Positions 6,490-64,000 of a DNA stretch of 64,000 nt are shown here, one piece after another. The translations under genes were made by a program, and so were the position numbers. The notes below the pieces were generated by a model that was not told where the DNA came from, did not search any database, and was given only the letters and a program-made list of their open reading frames with translations. The DNA lies in assembly GCF_000739635.1 (NCBI RefSeq), contig NZ_BATQ01000085.1:62001-126000 (forward strand), read 5' to 3'. The stretch comes from Verrucomicrobium sp. BvORR034 (lineage in GTDB: Bacteria > Verrucomicrobiota > Verrucomicrobiia > Verrucomicrobiales > Verrucomicrobiaceae). Position 1 is the first letter of the stretch; every line of letters starts with the position of its first letter.

Positions 6490-6536
6490 GGAGAAATTGA
6501 TATGAAATTGTTTTGTAACACGCAAGTGCAATCAAT

Positions 6537-7382
6537 GTGCTTGTAAACTATTCCCGCGACATGATCTATTTATCTGCGAATGATCGAAATCTTGGCGAGC
6601 ACATGGATCTCCGTGTTGTCATACGGCGAATGGGTAAGGGGAGGATCTTCTGGCTGGATGAGGCTGTTGCGAATTCTGAGTATCGAAGTCTTGTCTACAA
6701 AGAGATCGATGGTTTGGTGCCAGTTGTTGCCGGTGGAGGGACATTGATGCCCTATTTTGAGCCCTTCTGGAAGGGGTTGCCTTGTGATCAGAAACTTTGG
6801 TTTGTTGGTACTGGGGTGTGTTTGGGCCATGGCCAGAGTGCGTCGTGGTTGCCTGGGGAAAATCAGGTGGACTTGCGTTCCAGGTTCAGGGGGCCTGTGG
6901 CGCCTGGAGTGTTTGAAGATCAGGACTTCCTGCCTCCTCCGGGTCTTCTTTTTAGAGTTCCGCGGTATCAAGGCAAATATGTGCTTTCGGTTGTGCATCC
7001 TGATCTGATTGATGCTGGGTGGCAATACATTCTGGCTGAGAAGGTTGCCAGAAAGTTGGGTTTGGGGGTCGTTCAGTGTGAGAATCAGTTGGAAGACAGA
7101 TCTCGGTACTCTGAGGCTGAACTGGTGATCACAAGCCGGCTCCATGGGGCGGTAATGGCCGCCGGCAACGGAATCCGCTGTTTTGCGTTGTCGCGAGATC
7201 GAAAGATGGACTGGTTTTGTTCGTCGGCAAAGGTTGCTTGCGTTGTGATCGATGATTGCCACCCGGATATTGTACCAGATGATCTGGTAAGTCTTGCAAG
7301 TTCAGCAGAAGTTCCGTCTGCGAGAGAGTTGGAAGCCAGGCTGGGAAAATATTTTGATCAGTATTCCGTTCGGTTCCAATAG
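6537..7382 (+). CDS. polysaccharide pyruvyl transferase family protein
   Basis: This ~281-aa protein carries the family's C-terminal signature YSEAELVITSRLHGAVMAAG, together with VVAGGGTLM and KLWFVGTGVCLG for the N-terminal half. Family members transfer pyruvyl (or related) groups onto sugars of exopolysaccharides. At this length it may be slightly shorter than typical members. The frame opens at a GTG (6537); an ATG at 6561 is an alternative start. It is divergent from the GT25 gene, with only ~50 bp between starts. Its intact SRLHG contrasts with the altered motif in the third domain of the protein at 2715-5831. Confidence 0.8.
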   Translation: MLVNYSRDMIYLSANDRNLGEHMDLRVVIRRMGKGRIFWLDEAVANSEYRSLVYKEIDGLVPVVAGGGTLMPYFEPFWKGLPCDQKLWFVGTGVCLGHGQSASWLPGENQVDLRSRFRGPVAPGVFEDQDFLPPPGLLFRVPRYQGKYVLSVVHPDLIDAGWQYILAEKVARKLGLGVVQCENQLEDRSRYSEAELVITSRLHGAVMAAGNGIRCFALSRDRKMDWFCSSAKVACVVIDDCHPDIVPDDLVSLASSAEVPSARELEARLGKYFDQYSVRFQ

Positions 7383-7567: not shown

Positions 7568-8071
7568 ATGGCGACTCCGAAACAAAAAAAGAAACAGCTA
7601 ATGAAGAACGAAGCAAATGAGCCTACGAGACGTCAGTTTCTAAAAACGGTAGGGCAGGCGGGATTGGTGTTCGCTTTCGGATCTGGCCTGTCATCGTGCG
7701 CAACTATCGCGGGTCAGCCCGAGGTAGAGGTGAAATATACTGTGAAAGACAACAATGGCACCTCGCAGGGGGAGCTGTCTTTCGGTCTCAAAGTCAAACT
7801 GAACGTTGGTTCGGGAAATCGTCGCGGTAGGACCTCCTACAGCGCCCTAAATGATACGTTGGTTATTGAGAACACGGAGAGCACGGATATCATCCTTGCG
7901 GAGTTCATTGATGATCCAACTTCATTGGTGCTTCTGGCACCGGGGCAGTCCATCGAAATTACCGAGGTGACTTCCGGAGTTGGCACGATTGCCAATACGT
8001 CGTCCACGCAGATTGCTATTGGCGACTATTTCGCAGATCCTGCCACATCTGGTACCTACGAGTTGCTTTAG
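7568..8071 (+). CDS. Tat-exported lipoprotein of unknown function
   Basis: From the ATG at 7568 the protein begins with a basic region, then TRRQFLKTVGQAGLVFAFGS, a twin-arginine signal, and ends the signal with GLSSC, a lipobox. It should therefore be folded in the cytoplasm, exported by Tat and lipidated. The mature part (~115 aa) is beta-rich and Thr/Ser/Asn-rich with no motif I recognise. Other start codons exist upstream (7478) and downstream (7601). The next gene downstream encodes another predicted lipoprotein. Confidence 0.65.
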   Translation: MATPKQKKKQLMKNEANEPTRRQFLKTVGQAGLVFAFGSGLSSCATIAGQPEVEVKYTVKDNNGTSQGELSFGLKVKLNVGSGNRRGRTSYSALNDTLVIENTESTDIILAEFIDDPTSLVLLAPGQSIEITEVTSGVGTIANTSSTQIAIGDYFADPATSGTYELL

Positions 8072-8084
8072 ATCGACACTTGTT

Positions 8085-8118
8085 CCACACTGTCTGATGC
8101 CTCTATCGGGCAGTGTGG
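8085..8118 (+). terminator. hairpin after the Tat lipoprotein gene
   Basis: CCACACTG (8085-8092) and CAGTGTGG (8111-8118) form an 8-bp perfect stem followed by GCTTT, fourteen bases after the upstream stop. The T-run is weak, so this is a possible terminator. The potential GTG start at 8113 for the next gene falls inside its 3' arm, which argues for a later start. Confidence 0.45.
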
Positions 8119-8169
8119 GCTTTGAGAAACCTGAGTCCAGTCAAAGCAGGATTTATTAAGGCATTTGTT

Positions 8170-8991
8170 GTGAACTTTCTAGCGCTGCATCGAAAACTGA
8201 TTATTTGCTCTGTGGCGTTTGCCGGTGCCGCCTGCATGTTCCTGACGGGTTGCACTCATATTGGAACGAGATCGGGTCAAAGTTCTGATCCGGGGTTGGG
8301 TGCAGCAATGAGGGCGGTGCAGATTTGGCAGACCGAGGGTGGGCGAAGTTCGTCGCTTTTGAAGCCAAGCCGCGGCCTGGAAATTACCGGGGGAATGGCT
8401 TTTCCGGTTTCAGAGGACGGCTACTACCTAACGTCCGGGCATGTTGCGAGCGAGAGAGCTGTGATCAAGATGCTTTTGGGTCCGGATGGTGAGGGTTGTC
8501 TGGTTTCAGATTTTACGGGGTCAGGTCAGCCGATAGTTGGTTTGCGCAACCTTGGCGGGGCAGTTGCGACTGGAAATTCGCAGGTTAGAGAAGTCGAATG
8601 CAGTGTTGTTAAGCATTTGGTTTCATCTGACCTGACCATACTAAAAGCTCGGCGCAAGACTCCCGGATATCTTGGCTTCTTTCATCGAGCGCCCACCTCC
8701 AATGTGGGTGTGTATTGGGCGGCTAATCCGCTGCGATATCCGGGACCTTACGTTCACAAATGTGCGGTGAAGAAGGTGGAGATTACGAGTGCGGATACGT
8801 GGTTTGTATGGTTGGATGCTTCAGGAAAGCAGGGGGATAGTGGTAGCCCGATCGTCAATGAGGATGGAAAGTTGATAGGAGTAGTCGTTGGGCAGCAGGT
8901 GGTGGATGGGATGCCGATGCTTCTTGGCTCGGGTGTCTCGCAACGCATTGTCGATGGCATCATAGCAAGACACAGACATAGTTCGCAGTAG
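8170..8991 (+). CDS. trypsin-like serine protease, predicted lipoprotein
   Basis: The catalytic triad of the chymotrypsin clan is visible: His in YYLTSGHVAS, Asp in SSDLTILKA, and Ser in KQGDSGSPIVNEDGKLIGVV. I prefer the GTG at 8170 because it gives a compact lipoprotein signal (hydrophobic run ending in MFLTGC) and has AAGG about 9 nt upstream. The frame is open back to a GTG at 8113, which lies within a hairpin. The enzyme would act in the periplasm or at the outer membrane. The pairing with a Tat lipoprotein suggests a shared envelope role, which is inference. Confidence 0.78.
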   Translation: MNFLALHRKLIICSVAFAGAACMFLTGCTHIGTRSGQSSDPGLGAAMRAVQIWQTEGGRSSSLLKPSRGLEITGGMAFPVSEDGYYLTSGHVASERAVIKMLLGPDGEGCLVSDFTGSGQPIVGLRNLGGAVATGNSQVREVECSVVKHLVSSDLTILKARRKTPGYLGFFHRAPTSNVGVYWAANPLRYPGPYVHKCAVKKVEITSADTWFVWLDASGKQGDSGSPIVNEDGKLIGVVVGQQVVDGMPMLLGSGVSQRIVDGIIARHRHSSQ

Positions 8992-59765: not shown

Positions 59766-60230
59766 TTACTTGGCCTCTACGGCCTTCCAGTTGCCGATGT
59801 CATCGGCCGTGTTTTCCTGGCCGTCCTTGCCCACGGAGTACACGTCATAGGGGTCCTTGGACTTCTGGGCGGGATAGCGGTACTTGTAGGGCTGCTTCCA
59901 CGGATCGCTGGGGATCTCGTTCATGTAGCGGTTCCAGCGCTCAGGCAGCGGCGCGGTGGTGGGCTTTTCCGTGAGGGCCATGATACCCTGCTCGGTGGTG
60001 GGGTAGCGGCCTGCGCCATAGGAGTAGGCGTCCAGCGCGGTGCTGATGGTCTGAATGTCGCCCTTCACGCGATCTGCTTGGGCTCCTTCCACGAGGCCAC
60101 CGCGATTGAGCACGGTGATGGCGGCGCCCATGATGAGCGCGAGCAACGTGAGCACGAGCACGAGTTCAATGAGGGTGAAGCCTCGCGCAGATCGGCGGTG
60201 GCGCAGAGGGGTGATAGAGGTCGTATTCAT
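59766..60230 (-). CDS. gspG: type II secretion major pseudopilin GspG
   Basis: The 154-aa major pseudopilin has the classic signal RRSARGFTLIELVLVLTLLA, then the GspG body: DRVKGDIQTISTALDAYSYG, GRYPTTEQGIMALTEKP and the C-terminal loop SDPWKQPYKYRYP with YSVGKDGQENTADDIGNW, which contains the Asp/Asn residues that bind Ca2+ in GspG. Cleavage by a prepilin peptidase is expected; that gene is not in the window. Confidence 0.95.
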   Translation of the reverse strand: MNTTSITPLRHRRSARGFTLIELVLVLTLLALIMGAAITVLNRGGLVEGAQADRVKGDIQTISTALDAYSYGAGRYPTTEQGIMALTEKPTTAPLPERWNRYMNEIPSDPWKQPYKYRYPAQKSKDPYDVYSVGKDGQENTADDIGNWKAVEAK

Positions 60231-60294
60231 GCGGGTGGGTGTAGGTTGGAGGGGTCGTGGGTTGCGGTTGTGTTGAGGAGAAAGGAAAGGGGAA

Positions 60295-61530
60295 TCAGGA
60301 ATGCGCGCGGACGCTGGTCATGGTTTCGAAGATGGCGGTGACGATGGAGATGGCGACGACGCCCACCACCACGAACAAGATGACCAGAACGATCGGCGTG
60401 ATGAGAGCTGTCACCCGTTTGACCCTGCCATCCAGCTCCTTGTCATAACGGGCGGCAATCTTTTCCAGCGATTTGCCTAGGCGACCGGTTTGCTCGCCCA
60501 TGGCGACCATGTCCACCAGCAACACCGGCAGGTGCCCGACCTTCCGCAGCGCAGAGGAGAGGGACACCCCTTCACCGATGATGCCAGCAGCCTGATTGAG
60601 CAGACCGCGCAGGAAGACATTGGCCGTGGACTTCGCGGTGAGCTTGAGCGCGTTGAGCAGGGGAATGCCGTTGTTCACCAGGTTCCCCAGAGAGGCGGCG
60701 AACTGGGCGTTGAAACGGGCCGTCAGCACAGGACCGAAGAGGGGGATCTTCAGTTTCGCACGGTCCCACCACATCCGGCCAGACTCTTTGGCGATGTAGG
60801 CGCGGAAGAGCAGCACCGAGGAGACGATGACCGCCAGGGCCAGCCACCACCAGTGTTTGACCAGGTCGGAGAAGGTCCCCAGCATCTCCATGACGAAGGG
60901 GAGCTTCGTGCGGCTTTTTGAGAGCATGTCCACAAAGCCGGGCAGCAGCACCGTGCTGAACACGATCAGCAGCATGATGAGCGCGCCGAACATGAAGGCG
61001 GGGTACACCAGAGCGGCAACCACGCGGCTCTGCAGGTCGTGCATCTGGGTGATGCTGGCGGAGAGCCGCCGCAAGATCTGGGGAAGGGAGCCTGACACCT
61101 CACCGGCGGTGGCGAGGTTGCAATACATTTCATCAAAGCTGGGCGAGGCCTGCAGCAGCGCCTTGGAGAATGTGGCGCCTTCCCGCAACTGCTCGCGGAT
61201 GCGGCCGCTCACCTTGCGCAGCACGGGAGACTCCTGGCGCTCATGCATCACGCGCAACGCCTGTTCCAGTTGCAACCCACCATCCATGAGGTCGGCCAAC
61301 TCCTCGGTGAAGAGAATCAACTGGGCCCGCTTCAGCACCGGGGCAGGGGAGGTGTCTTTCGCCTCCTCCTTGGCTGCCTTTGCCTCCGCAGTCGTTTCCT
61401 CTGCCACCTTGATCGGTGTCAGCCGCTGCGACTCCAGTTGACGATAAACTTCCGCCCGGGTCGAGACGGCAAGCGATCCCGTGACCTGTTTGCCAGAGGT
61501 GTCGAGAGCAGTGTAGGCGAAAGCAGGCAT
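60295..61530 (-). CDS. gspF: type II secretion inner-membrane protein GspF
   Basis: The 411-aa polytopic protein begins MPAFAYTALDTSGKQVTGSL, as GspF does. Two repeated cytoplasmic domains with PilC/GspF motifs (FTEELADLMDGGLQLEQALR, FNAQFAASLGNLVNNGIPLL and MGEQTGRLGKSLEKIAARYD) are separated by membrane helices near 170-195, 220-240 and 370-400. It forms the platform core contacting GspE and GspL. Its translation start lies directly after the left 8-bp repeat array that borders the inserted four-helix-bundle gene. Confidence 0.95.
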   Translation of the reverse strand: MPAFAYTALDTSGKQVTGSLAVSTRAEVYRQLESQRLTPIKVAEETTAEAKAAKEEAKDTSPAPVLKRAQLILFTEELADLMDGGLQLEQALRVMHERQESPVLRKVSGRIREQLREGATFSKALLQASPSFDEMYCNLATAGEVSGSLPQILRRLSASITQMHDLQSRVVAALVYPAFMFGALIMLLIVFSTVLLPGFVDMLSKSRTKLPFVMEMLGTFSDLVKHWWWLALAVIVSSVLLFRAYIAKESGRMWWDRAKLKIPLFGPVLTARFNAQFAASLGNLVNNGIPLLNALKLTAKSTANVFLRGLLNQAAGIIGEGVSLSSALRKVGHLPVLLVDMVAMGEQTGRLGKSLEKIAARYDKELDGRVKRVTALITPIVLVILFVVVGVVAISIVTAIFETMTSVRAHS

Positions 61531-61534
61531 GTTC

Positions 61535-61574
61535 GGTAAAACAGTAATTCAGTAATTCGGTAAAACAGTGGTTC
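61535..61574. repeat. left 8-bp repeat array (five units)
   Basis: On the plus strand five 8-mers follow without gap: GGTAAAAC, AGTAATTC, AGTAATTC, GGTAAAAC, AGTGGTTC (consensus RGTAAWWC). They lie between the gspF start and the end of the four-helix-bundle gene and are the inverse of the right array. Confidence 0.9.
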
Positions 61575-61586
61575 GCCCAATGGGCA

Positions 61587-62012
61587 TCAATTGCTTCTGG
61601 AACGTTTTGGGAAGGAGAATCCTCCGTTCGGGCTCATCATCTTGTTCAACATCTTGCCAATCGCTTTGGAACGTTCCGCAAGCTGCTCTGACGTTTCCAG
61701 GTCAAGGTACTGGCAGGCATAGGCGGTGCGCAGCCAGTGAAGCGTTTCCAGGTTTTCAGCATCAGCATCCGTCAGTTTCATTACGAAGTGAGCATCGTAT
61801 TGTCGTTTGCCCCAGGCTTCGGCGATGTTCGCTCCTACTGCCCGGCTGCTACGACGAATTTGATCTGTGAGAGAGTAAGACTCTTCGCGGGGCCAGAGCT
61901 TGCTAATACGGAAAACTTCCTGCTGCAGCTGAAAGGCAAATTTGTAAACGGTCAATTCGGTGAAATTTTGGACAAAACCTTGGGGTTGGGGATTTGATGC
62001 TTCGTCGCTCAT
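61587..62012 (-). CDS. four-helix bundle protein (S23 / 23S rRNA IVS family)
   Basis: From the ATG at 62012 the ~141-aa protein has the S23/IVS four-helix-bundle pattern: FTELTVYKFAFQLQQEVFRI, LTDQIRRSSRAVGANIAEAW, GKRQYDAHFVMKLTDADAEN and LEQ-type helix ETLHWLRTAYACQYLDLETS. Relatives are often encoded in 23S rRNA intervening sequences and in diversity-generating retroelement accessory (Avd) proteins; their function is mostly unknown. Here the gene interrupts the gspE-gspF junction and is bordered on both sides by inverted 8-bp repeat arrays. It shares the operon's strand. Alternative starts are at 62042 and 62030. Confidence 0.88.
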   Translation of the reverse strand: MSDEASNPQPQGFVQNFTELTVYKFAFQLQQEVFRISKLWPREESYSLTDQIRRSSRAVGANIAEAWGKRQYDAHFVMKLTDADAENLETLHWLRTAYACQYLDLETSEQLAERSKAIGKMLNKMMSPNGGFSFPKRSRSN

Positions 62013-62055
62013 AGGAAACCATCGCTCCATTCCTTGGTGCATCTAGTGAATTGAT

Positions 62056-62103
62056 GAACTCCTGGTTTACTGGGTTACCGAATTACTGAATTACCGGGTT
62101 ACT
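62056..62103. repeat. right 8-bp repeat array (six units, inverted)
   Basis: Read on the minus strand from 62103: AGTAACCC, GGTAATTC, AGTAATTC, GGTAACCC, AGTAAACC, AGGAGTTC. Same consensus as the left array, in inverted orientation. The first unit supplies the last two bases (AG) of the gspE TAG stop, so the array abuts the gspE coding end. Confidence 0.9.
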
Positions 62104-63796
62104 AATCTGAGCTTGCCGTAACCGTCATCACCTCCTCCACGGTCGTGACGCCCTGGATGGCTTTCATGAAGCCGTACTGGCGCATGGGGATCATGCCGTC
62201 CTTGAAGGCCTGGGCCTTGAGTTCGGCGATGGGCGCGCGAAGGTTGATCTTCTCACCCATCTGGGAGGTGACTTCACAGATCTCCATGATGGCGAGACGG
62301 CCCTGGAAGCCGGTGCCACGGCACTGGCGGCAGCCTTCGGGACGGCGGAGTTTGTCTGCTTCAGAGAGGGGGAATCCGATGGCTTCGAGGTAGCTCTTTT
62401 CAAGCTGGGTGGGCTGCTTGCAGAAGGGGCAGAGCGTGCGCACGAGCCGCTGGGCCTGGAAGGCGCGGACGGAAGAGGAAATAAGAAAGGGCTCGATGCC
62501 CATGTCCAGCAGACGGCTGATGCCGCCCACGGCATCGTTCGTGTGCAGGGTGGAGAAGACAAGGTGACCGGTGAGGGCGGCGCGGATGGCGATCTCGGTG
62601 GTCTCAAGGTCACGCATTTCCCCCACCATCACGACGTTGGGGTCGCCACGCAGGATGCTGCGCAGACCCGCGGCGAAGGTGAGGTTGATCTCCGGCTTCA
62701 CGGCGATCTGGATCACGCCATCCAGCTTGTTTTCCACCGGATCCTCGATGGTGACGATGCGGCGTTCTTTGGTGTTGAGTTGCCGGAGGAAGGTGTAGAG
62801 CGTGGTGCTCTTCCCGCTTCCCGTGGGGCCCGTCACAAGGATGATGCCGTTGGGGGAGCCGAGCAGGCGACGAATGCTGGTCTCGATGTGGGGTGTGAGT
62901 CCCAGCTTCTCAAAGTCGAACTTCTGGCGGGTGAGCAGACGAAGGCTCACGCTCTCGCCATTGACGGAGGGGATGGTGGCCACGCGGACGTCGATGGGGT
63001 CACCATCGAGTTCGAGGTTGATACGACCATCCTGTGGCAGCCGGCGCTCGGCGATGTCCAGATGCGCCATGATCTTGAGGCGCGAGATGAGAGAGGCCTG
63101 CAGCAGCCGCATGTTGGGCGGCACTGGGACCTCTTGCAGCTTGCCGTCGATGCGGTAGCGAATGCGCAGATCGCGCTCCAGCGGCTCTACGTGAATGTCG
63201 GTGGCCCGTTCCTTCAAGGCTTCGCGGAAGATCTGGTTCACGAAGTTCATGACCGTGGCCTCCTCGTCCGCCTCGTCGAGGACGTTCACTTCCTGCTTCA
63301 TGTCATCGTGGCTGGAGTCGCCGTCGCGGCCTTCCAGCAACTCCTCGAAGTTCTCTGCCCCCACGCCATAGCCCTGGTGCAGGGCTTCCAGGATGCGTCG
63401 GCGGGTGGCCAGACCCCAGGTGATGCGCTTGCGCACCTCCTGGCCCACAGCTTGGCGGGCATCCAGGTTGAAGGGGTCGTACGTGAGCAGCGTCAGGTCC
63501 GCTCCGCTCAGATGGGCGGGGTACACCCGGTGGCGCAGGGCTAGCTTGGCCGGGAAGCGATTGTGGAGATTGTCCGCGGGCTCCAGACTTTCGTCCGAAG
63601 TGAACGGCAGGCTCAGCGAGCGGCCGAGGTGCTCGATAAAGAGGTCTTCATCGACCAGATTGGAGTCCAGCAGGGCTTCCACCAGGGAGCCACGACGGGA
63701 AACTGCCTCCTCCAAGGTCTGGCGGCAGAGTTGGGACTGGGTGCATCCAGCTTCGGAAGCTGTCTGGGCCAGGAGATCGGTAAGGGAAAAGGACAT
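62102..63796 (-). CDS. gspE: type II secretion ATPase GspE
   Basis: The 564-aa ATPase powers pseudopilus assembly. After N-terminal GspE-N domains come Walker A GPTGSGKSTTLYTF (~322), the Asp box IVTIEDPVENKLDGVIQIAV, Walker B VVMVGEMRDLETTEIA (Met for the usual Ile) and the His box LVFSTLHTNDAVGGISRL. The zinc-binding loop has CPFC and CRQC. It is the first gene of the minus-strand operon; the promoter should lie in the 158-bp spacer before the divergent gene at 63955. Confidence 0.96.
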   Translation of the reverse strand: MSFSLTDLLAQTASEAGCTQSQLCRQTLEEAVSRRGSLVEALLDSNLVDEDLFIEHLGRSLSLPFTSDESLEPADNLHNRFPAKLALRHRVYPAHLSGADLTLLTYDPFNLDARQAVGQEVRKRITWGLATRRRILEALHQGYGVGAENFEELLEGRDGDSSHDDMKQEVNVLDEADEEATVMNFVNQIFREALKERATDIHVEPLERDLRIRYRIDGKLQEVPVPPNMRLLQASLISRLKIMAHLDIAERRLPQDGRINLELDGDPIDVRVATIPSVNGESVSLRLLTRQKFDFEKLGLTPHIETSIRRLLGSPNGIILVTGPTGSGKSTTLYTFLRQLNTKERRIVTIEDPVENKLDGVIQIAVKPEINLTFAAGLRSILRGDPNVVMVGEMRDLETTEIAIRAALTGHLVFSTLHTNDAVGGISRLLDMGIEPFLISSSVRAFQAQRLVRTLCPFCKQPTQLEKSYLEAIGFPLSEADKLRRPEGCRQCRGTGFQGRLAIMEICEVTSQMGEKINLRAPIAELKAQAFKDGMIPMRQYGFMKAIQGVTTVEEVMTVTASSD

Positions 63797-63954
63797 CGGG
63801 ACAGAACGCTAAACGCAGCAAGCAGTCAGGAATTGCGAAAAACAGAGTCAGCCAAACAAGCTTCAACTCCCCGGCCGCGAACAGGTTGCGGGGGAATTTG
63901 AACTTGATGCTGCGACTCCGGGTCGCTAGGCTTCGAATTACATAGGAGCCTGCG

Positions 63955-64000
63955 ATGAAACTCAAGCCTGCACTCGGAGTCGTCCTGGTTTTTCTTGTTG
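63955..64000 (+). CDS. start of an exported protein, truncated by window end
   Basis: An ATG at 63955 with AGGAG 7 nt upstream (63943-63947) opens a frame beginning MKLKPALGVVLVFLV, the start of a signal peptide. Only 15 codons are in the window. It is divergent from gspE. TTGATG (63904-63909) and TAGGCT (63927-63932), 17 bp apart, may be its promoter. Confidence 0.55.
   Translation, partial: MKLKPALGVVLVFLV

Follow-up and report, generated by a model that had tools for sequence, protein, structure and literature searches.

An S23 gene between inward-facing octamer arrays in a type II secretion operon: an IVS-like cassette that may belong to a wider class of mobile elements

S23-encoding intervening sequences (IVSs) are found in the 23S rRNA genes of Coxiella, Leptospira and Brucella, and the Coxiella insert is excised by RNase III; the same paper treats S23 as a protein without known function and reports a pentamer for the Xanthomonas protein (PDB 2gsc) (Warrier 2016, PMC4990558). 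S23 is also related to Avd (PMC10053308). In an IVS the S23 gene lies between complementary ends inside a host transcript and has a sporadic distribution, and both features recur at the locus described here.

Dispersed intergenic short repeats form another described system, and the STRR sequences of cyanobacteria are of a comparable kind. Heptamer arrays of this type have been reported with the unit TAACTGA, mostly directly upstream of start codons (MacGregor 2015, PMC4679880), and with the units GGGAATC and GGGGA(C/T)T (Rehm 2015, PMC4692102). Thus, dispersed heptamer arrays are already known. Their link to S23 genes was not found in print: a connection between an S23 gene and short tandem arrays was not found among the matches listed in the open-access literature, which leaves subscription papers mostly outside, and S23 has no occurrence in the main texts of PMC4679880 and PMC4692102.

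The S23 cassette between gspE and gspF

The DNA analysed here (the window) is a 64 kb stretch of Verrucomicrobium sp. BvORR034. In it, the gene for an S23 (23S rRNA IVP) four-helix-bundle protein of 151 aa (minus strand, 61587..62042; alternative ATG at 62012) lies between two genes of a type II secretion operon: the ATPase gene gspE upstream (minus strand, 62102..63796; T2SSE 435.5 bits; TIGR02533 555.8 bits, under the equivalog cut-off of 630.25) and gspF downstream (minus strand, 60295..61530; T2SSF 166.9 bits). The protein matches PF05635 (98.9 bits, cut-off 33.8) and TIGR02436 (94.4 bits, cut-off 24), and its PDB relatives are 2rld and 2gsc; PF05635 is matched by 21 of 21 members of our alignment of S23 proteins (A1). 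S23 is the sole gene recognised between gspE and gspF. No transposase, integrase or reverse transcriptase was found within the cassette, the S23 protein had no match in PADLOC, and an Rfam search of positions 60000-64000 gave no match at the gathering score.

Two octamer arrays face inward, in inverted orientation, around the S23 gene. The downstream arm (plus strand, 61535..61574) is made of the five octamers GGTAAAAC AGTAATTC AGTAATTC GGTAAAAC AGTGGTTC and stops four bases ahead of the gspF ATG. The upstream arm (minus strand, 62064..62103) reads into the cassette as AGTAACCC GGTAATTC AGTAATTC GGTAACCC AGTAAACC, with two decayed units that extend it to 62048, and its outer edge overlaps the gspE stop codon. 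The PF05635 match and the array scan thus bear out the preliminary description of this DNA, which had proposed an S23 gene between gspE and gspF with inverted flanking octamer arrays and an array edge at the gspE stop codon. Its count of five units on one side also stands; the other side holds five good and two decayed units rather than six. With the scanner threshold used, the window holds no other array of this octamer, and the same scanner gave one match in total in five mononucleotide shuffles of the window and none in the reversed sequence.

Complementarity between the arms is 78% across 41 nt and 85% across 34 nt, and they can form a stem. Folding of the whole cassette in the mRNA sense (minus strand, 61531..62106) gave −173.7 kcal/mol (z −3.29), lower than each of 100 shuffles, and the arms are predicted to pair in the RNA as a terminal stem that encloses the S23 frame. 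This stem potential adds to the likeness to an IVS. By contrast, the host of the window cassette is a protein operon, the cassette sitting between gspE and gspF and not inside an rRNA gene, and its ends are arrays of a repeated unit.

The cassette also resembles the dispersed heptamer arrays, as these too have tandem units of 7-8 bp, lie mostly between genes near gene ends and vary in unit number at conserved sites; the octamer of the own genome likewise forms many tandem sets, most of them next to gene ends (see below), and TAACTGA, read on the other strand, is a CAGT-containing heptamer. It differs in that the window unit is 8 bp, although heptamers occupy the gspE-gspF junctions of genomes G002 and G003, and in that the accounts consulted of the TAACTGA and GGGNATC arrays do not describe them as paired ends of a gene cassette (PMC4679880, PMC4692102). 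Avd of the diversity-generating retroelements belongs to a related family, and the window S23 protein matches the bAvd (32.7 bits) and DivGenRetAVD (27.7 bits) models weakly; however, both scores are under the cut-offs (40 and 80, respectively) and the cassette is without a reverse transcriptase. Inverted ends and the existence of array-only versions at gspE-gspF recall MITEs and insertion sequences, but here there is no transposase, the ends are tandem arrays, and the unit varies between elements instead of forming a single conserved terminal repeat.

Inverted arrays around other S23 genes

A scan for RGTAAWWC around the other S23 genes of the own genome found no arrays, because it covered this unit only and the flanks hold others; unit-free measures were therefore used. 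Flanks of further S23 genes carry inverted arrays whose unit changes from gene to gene, with AGTGGGC next to an ABC transporter gene, AGTNAAA or AGGGNNA at ilvB-ilvN, and AAGACNN and others elsewhere (the names ilvB-ilvN and ABC rest on our reading of the translated flanks). The RGTAAWWC-like octamer of the preliminary description is thus right for this locus, but it is merely a local version of a unit that varies from locus to locus.

In six genomes (G000, G002, G003, G007, G016 and G071), an inverted arm score of at least 17 was reached in 27 of the 35 PF05635 loci analysed (8 below threshold) and a direct score of at least 17 in 5 of 35, with 1 of 32 control windows scoring. The 35 comprise all 7 own-genome matches and 28 of the 33 from the other five genomes. 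The five left aside are L287 and L291 in G016 and another three matches, two in G007 and one in G002, that have no locus. Matching inverted arms are present in 6 of the 7 own-genome loci, the exception being a match below the family cut-off. At four loci of the set (L040, L297, L298 and L300) the arms are inverted without being plain 7-8 bp arrays.

To look across phyla we used the best 80 of 579 relatives, all retrieved by one peptide pattern, which favours one subfamily; 76 of the 80 loci have 200 bp or more on each side, and control windows were taken 1 kb out. Inverted arm scores of at least 20 were found in 41 of the 76 loci (35 fell below) and in 4 of 66 control windows, which, as in the six-genome test, were not selected as intergenic. 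Direct scores reached 20 in 8 of 76, and at seven of these eight the direct score exceeds the inverted one, far so at L201, L184 and L124. Tandem repeats mark 62 of 156 S23 flanks as against 10 of 282 control windows; 53 of the 62 have a period of 7, and the criterion is satisfied on at least one side in 44 of the 76 loci and on both sides in 15. The arrays are oriented: upstream ones were called RGT in 28 cases and ACY in none, with neither called in 5, and downstream ones ACY in 23 and RGT in 4, with neither called in 2. Gene direction could be scored at 65 of the 80 loci, and at 55 of these the S23 gene runs the same way as the genes on both sides.

On average, an arm resembles its own partner more closely than it resembles the arms of other cassettes. 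Across the 76 loci, own-partner arms average 21.1 versus 13.7 for arms of different loci, a value reached by 0 of 5000 permutations; the own partner ranks first in 12 loci and first or second in 22. Together, these data support the S23 gene between inverted short-tandem arrays as a recurrent unit.

S23 relatives occur in 32 of 72,556 plasmid records, 16 of the 32 being Nostoc. All are cyanobacterial by name save one Azospirillum. Inspection of 16 of the 32 loci by eye revealed inward arrays on both sides in 13, for example of GCAGGGGA or GGTGTAG; the inward arrays are not clear at L264 and L274, and those at L271 look direct. Among the 13, with heptamer-type arms, is the locus of Azospirillum lipoferum plasmid AZO_p2 (L278), where a large-subunit rRNA gene, identified by Rfam RF02541 at 2529 bits, contains the S23 gene. 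In this single example, rRNA insert and operon cassette share one architecture. In a type III-B CRISPR operon on a Picosynechococcus plasmid (L276), cas10 is separated from a cmr3-family gene by an S23 gene (1492-1848), around which inverted arrays can be seen by eye. The mention of the 23S rRNA IVP in a figure legend of the FLSHclust paper, on CRISPR adaptation modules, may bear on this locus.

The gspE-gspF junction and exchange between congeners

A GspF match was present in 67 genomes; in the best 30 of these, own included, the locus shows gspE in 23. Their junctions hold S23 between arrays in 5, inverted arrays without S23 in 2 (L237 and L246), a gap of 19-68 bp in 6 and another insert in 10, and G029, outside these 23, is a further S23 case. 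Empty, array-only and full states of the junction thus exist among relatives, and the junction is a hot spot for small inserts. The preliminary description had suggested looking for an empty site in sister strains; the empty junctions seen here belong to other genera. That description had also named S23 conserved here in all relatives without arrays as evidence against itself; in the five relatives found with S23 at this junction the gene has arrays of other units, heptamers in G002 and G003.

Arm scores separate these states, with 6-14 for the other inserts (10 of 10), 18-26 for the S23 cassettes (5 of 5) and 18 and 24 for the array-only junctions; 200 shuffles of one junction gave at most 16. 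Own arms are best or tied best in 7 of 8 gspE-gspF cassettes, with G024 the exception, and in 8 of 11 of a second cassette set. The G000 cassette scores 24 with its own arm and at most 12 with other partners. One of the other inserts (L238), a DUF6036 nucleotidyltransferase gene, has short RGT-repeat-like edges by eye, which count against S23 specificity of the arms. Nine relatives (L243, L245, L247, L249, L253, L254, L257, L259 and L261) carry at this junction an insert of 561-607 bp that encodes small proteins; a RelE/ParE-like toxin identity for these genes was dropped, as a Pfam search of the proteins of two of the nine gave no supported match.

Three junctions were compared in the congeners G000, G002 and G003, with values given below in the pair order G000-G002, G000-G003, G002-G003. 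The flanks at gspEF, ilvBN and ABC are 84-97% identical in every pair. The S23 proteins, however, are 60, 60 and 100% identical at gspEF, 91, 65 and 66% at ilvBN and 77, 95 and 76% at ABC, so that the odd species is G000, G003 and G002, respectively. The upstream arm scores follow the same pattern (gspEF 31, 30 and 115; ilvBN 111, 44 and 46; ABC 12, 120 and 18). Downstream windows (gspEF 76, 76 and 124; ilvBN 107, 96 and 76; ABC 37, 51 and 79) include the start of the next gene and track S23 less cleanly than the upstream arrays. Thus, S23 and the upstream array switch together at three junctions while the flanks stay steady, which shows that the two are exchanged as one block whose place in the operon is fixed. 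Of the idea of a self-contained cassette with tandem-array ends, the recurrent pairing of S23 with inverted arrays and the exchange of gene plus upstream array stand; the octamer is not supported as a marker of S23.

Dispersed arrays, rival explanations and a proposed mechanism

The own genome has 147 places that match the 20-base unit pattern with up to 3 mismatches, and 1 that matches the reversed pattern. Beyond the window cassette, the matches listed gave at least 37 sites with at least 42 arrays, and the seven PF05635 matches that the genome contains all lie outside the stretches of these 37 sites. The preliminary description had proposed to test whether the octamer arrays always border S23 genes and had named arrays at many unrelated sites without S23 as contrary evidence; 37 further sites in the own genome are exactly that. 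Its interpretation overall is partly supported: it picked the right object and a sound test but bound the cassette too tightly to one octamer.

Gene calls by reading-frame length and GC3, which are crude, put the 5' side of the array against a gene end in 35 of 40 dispersed arrays (31 at a stop, 4 at a start) and the 3' side in 1 of 38, counting arrays outside reading frames for which a gene was called on the side in question; the abutment to stop codons is partly built in, because the octamer contains TAA, which stops any frame within 24 bp. Three inverted array pairs without S23 (L026, L052 and L062) were considered as cassettes; each lies between convergent genes and can be accounted for by two stop-codon arrays. 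A related octamer pattern matches in 7 of 96 genomes searched: three belong to this genus (own included) and two to a second one, while the remaining two include a genome with a single match. In the complete relative G003, 26 of the 37 sites could be placed and 21 of the 26 carry arrays (scanner score of at least 12), often differing from ours in 8 bp steps, so the solo arrays are not recent insertions; the remaining five are heptamer-like or degenerate, and none is a clean empty site.

At two orthologous S23-less sites (L202 and L220 in G003; L033 and L060 in the own genome) one species has octamers and the other mainly GGTAAGN-type heptamers by eye; unit switching therefore happens without S23 too. 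In a 19-genome test of unit sharing between dispersed arrays and S23 cassettes, AGTAATC had 64, 33 and 29 matches in genomes that own the cassette as against 0-8 elsewhere, and CAGTCAR 104 as against at most 1. Sharing failed for CAGTAGR (10 in the owner, 8 of them in one array, by position that adjoining its S23 gene, versus 23 and 11 in non-owners) and for GGTGAGC (6 and 10 in owners versus 16, 7, 3 and 2), and the idea that dispersed arrays always share the cassette unit had a mixed outcome. Several further features were seen. At L010, L021, L049, L056 and L062 of the own genome, runs of the octamer AGTGCGTC, also the unit next to the ABC-junction S23 gene of G002, adjoin or continue degenerate RGTAAWTC arrays, and the flank of the L049 array is a dispersed repeat with about 16 places in G003. 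In G144 (contig C71, 16-30 kb), S23-unit arrays recur along 14 kb, nearly all in the same orientation, and in L129 of that genome further tandem repeats occupy 2188-2284 and 6509-6551 and flank a 123-aa frame (7939-8310) on either side.

These observations could be read without any mobility. S23 may be an old, vertically kept junction gene, its arrays turning over by slippage and gene conversion, and the sharp differences between species arising when a donor of a divergent allele recombines homologously across gspE and gspF. S23 occupies gspE-gspF in genera g1 and g2 as well as in g8, and the variation of dispersed arrays at fixed sites, often by 8 bp steps, fits such turnover. In trees of a hand-picked set that includes 9 of the 80 cross-phylum loci, the AU test does not reject a single clade that unites the six S23 genes found at gspE-gspF (p-AU 0.141), and the four g1 and g2 rows group with support 66/84 (L072 and L083, with a branch length of 10 and probably a wrong reading frame, were left out of the second of the two trees). 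One arrival at this junction and two are both compatible with these trees, so that long residence with replacement by homologous recombination may have occurred. Yet the S23 proteins of G002 and G003 are identical over 132 columns and that of G000 is 40% different, whereas the upstream flanks are about equidistant in all pairs; the rate of S23 is therefore not generally fast. Related S23 genes also stand at other junctions and in 23S rRNA, and on balance we judge this account unlikely, though it deserves weight.

Coincidence is a different matter, since short tandem repeats might simply gather in intergenic gaps in which S23 happens to lie. Dispersed arrays that lack an S23 gene are frequent, other bacteria also have intergenic heptamer arrays (PMC4679880, PMC4692102), and the L238 insert has RGT-like edges. 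The low arm scores of all ten other inserts at gspE-gspF, the few scoring control windows (which were not selected as intergenic) and the permutation result for same-locus arms make chance very improbable. The arrays might instead be a translational or transcript-stability device of operons, with S23 as its dedicated RNA-binding regulator and nothing selfish about it. Arms that terminate at stop and start codons fit such a device, as do the 5' abutment of dispersed arrays, albeit by crude calls and partly built in through TAA, and the post-transcriptional role proposed for TAACTGA arrays (MacGregor 2015, PMC4679880). But the unit varies from cassette to cassette within a genome and switches from one sister species to the next, which a shared regulator could hardly tolerate, and gspE-gspF junctions without S23 are common; we hold a regulatory device to be improbable.

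We consider it probable that the window element belongs to a widespread kind of S23 cassette that has inward arrays of a short unit, is IVS-like and selfish, is exchangeable and has arms that pair in RNA. Such a cassette would consist of a PF05635 gene between inward arrays, with a unit usually of 7 bp and here of 8 bp, placed in sense orientation in a gap of an operon. Pairing of the arms in the transcript would give a long hairpin whose loop holds the S23 frame, an arrangement like that of a 23S rRNA IVS. The insert may be tolerated either because RNase III cuts the hairpin out or because both neighbours stay translatable, the arms ending at stop and start codons. We infer that S23 binds the RNA or DNA of the arrays and helps cassette and arrays to spread, presumably assisted by an enzyme (for reverse transcription or recombination) supplied by the host rather than by the cassette.

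There is a fair chance that this IVS-like S23 cassette with array ends in a protein operon represents a wider class of mobile elements. More tentatively, and with doubt somewhat outweighing belief, S23 cassettes may form a new cross-phylum class with self-matching tandem-array ends and an RNA hairpin stage helped by the S23 pentamer, which would seed the dispersed heptamer and octamer arrays and of which the 23S rRNA IVS would be the best-known special case. The association of S23 genes with arrays joins two puzzles: S23, known from rRNA inserts and without an assigned function, and the dispersed heptamer arrays, described with neither a mechanism nor a partner protein. S23 becomes a candidate for the protein of the arrays, and the rRNA insert becomes one case of a general operon cassette. 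If the cassette does move via RNA without an enzyme of its own, it would be unusual among mobile elements.
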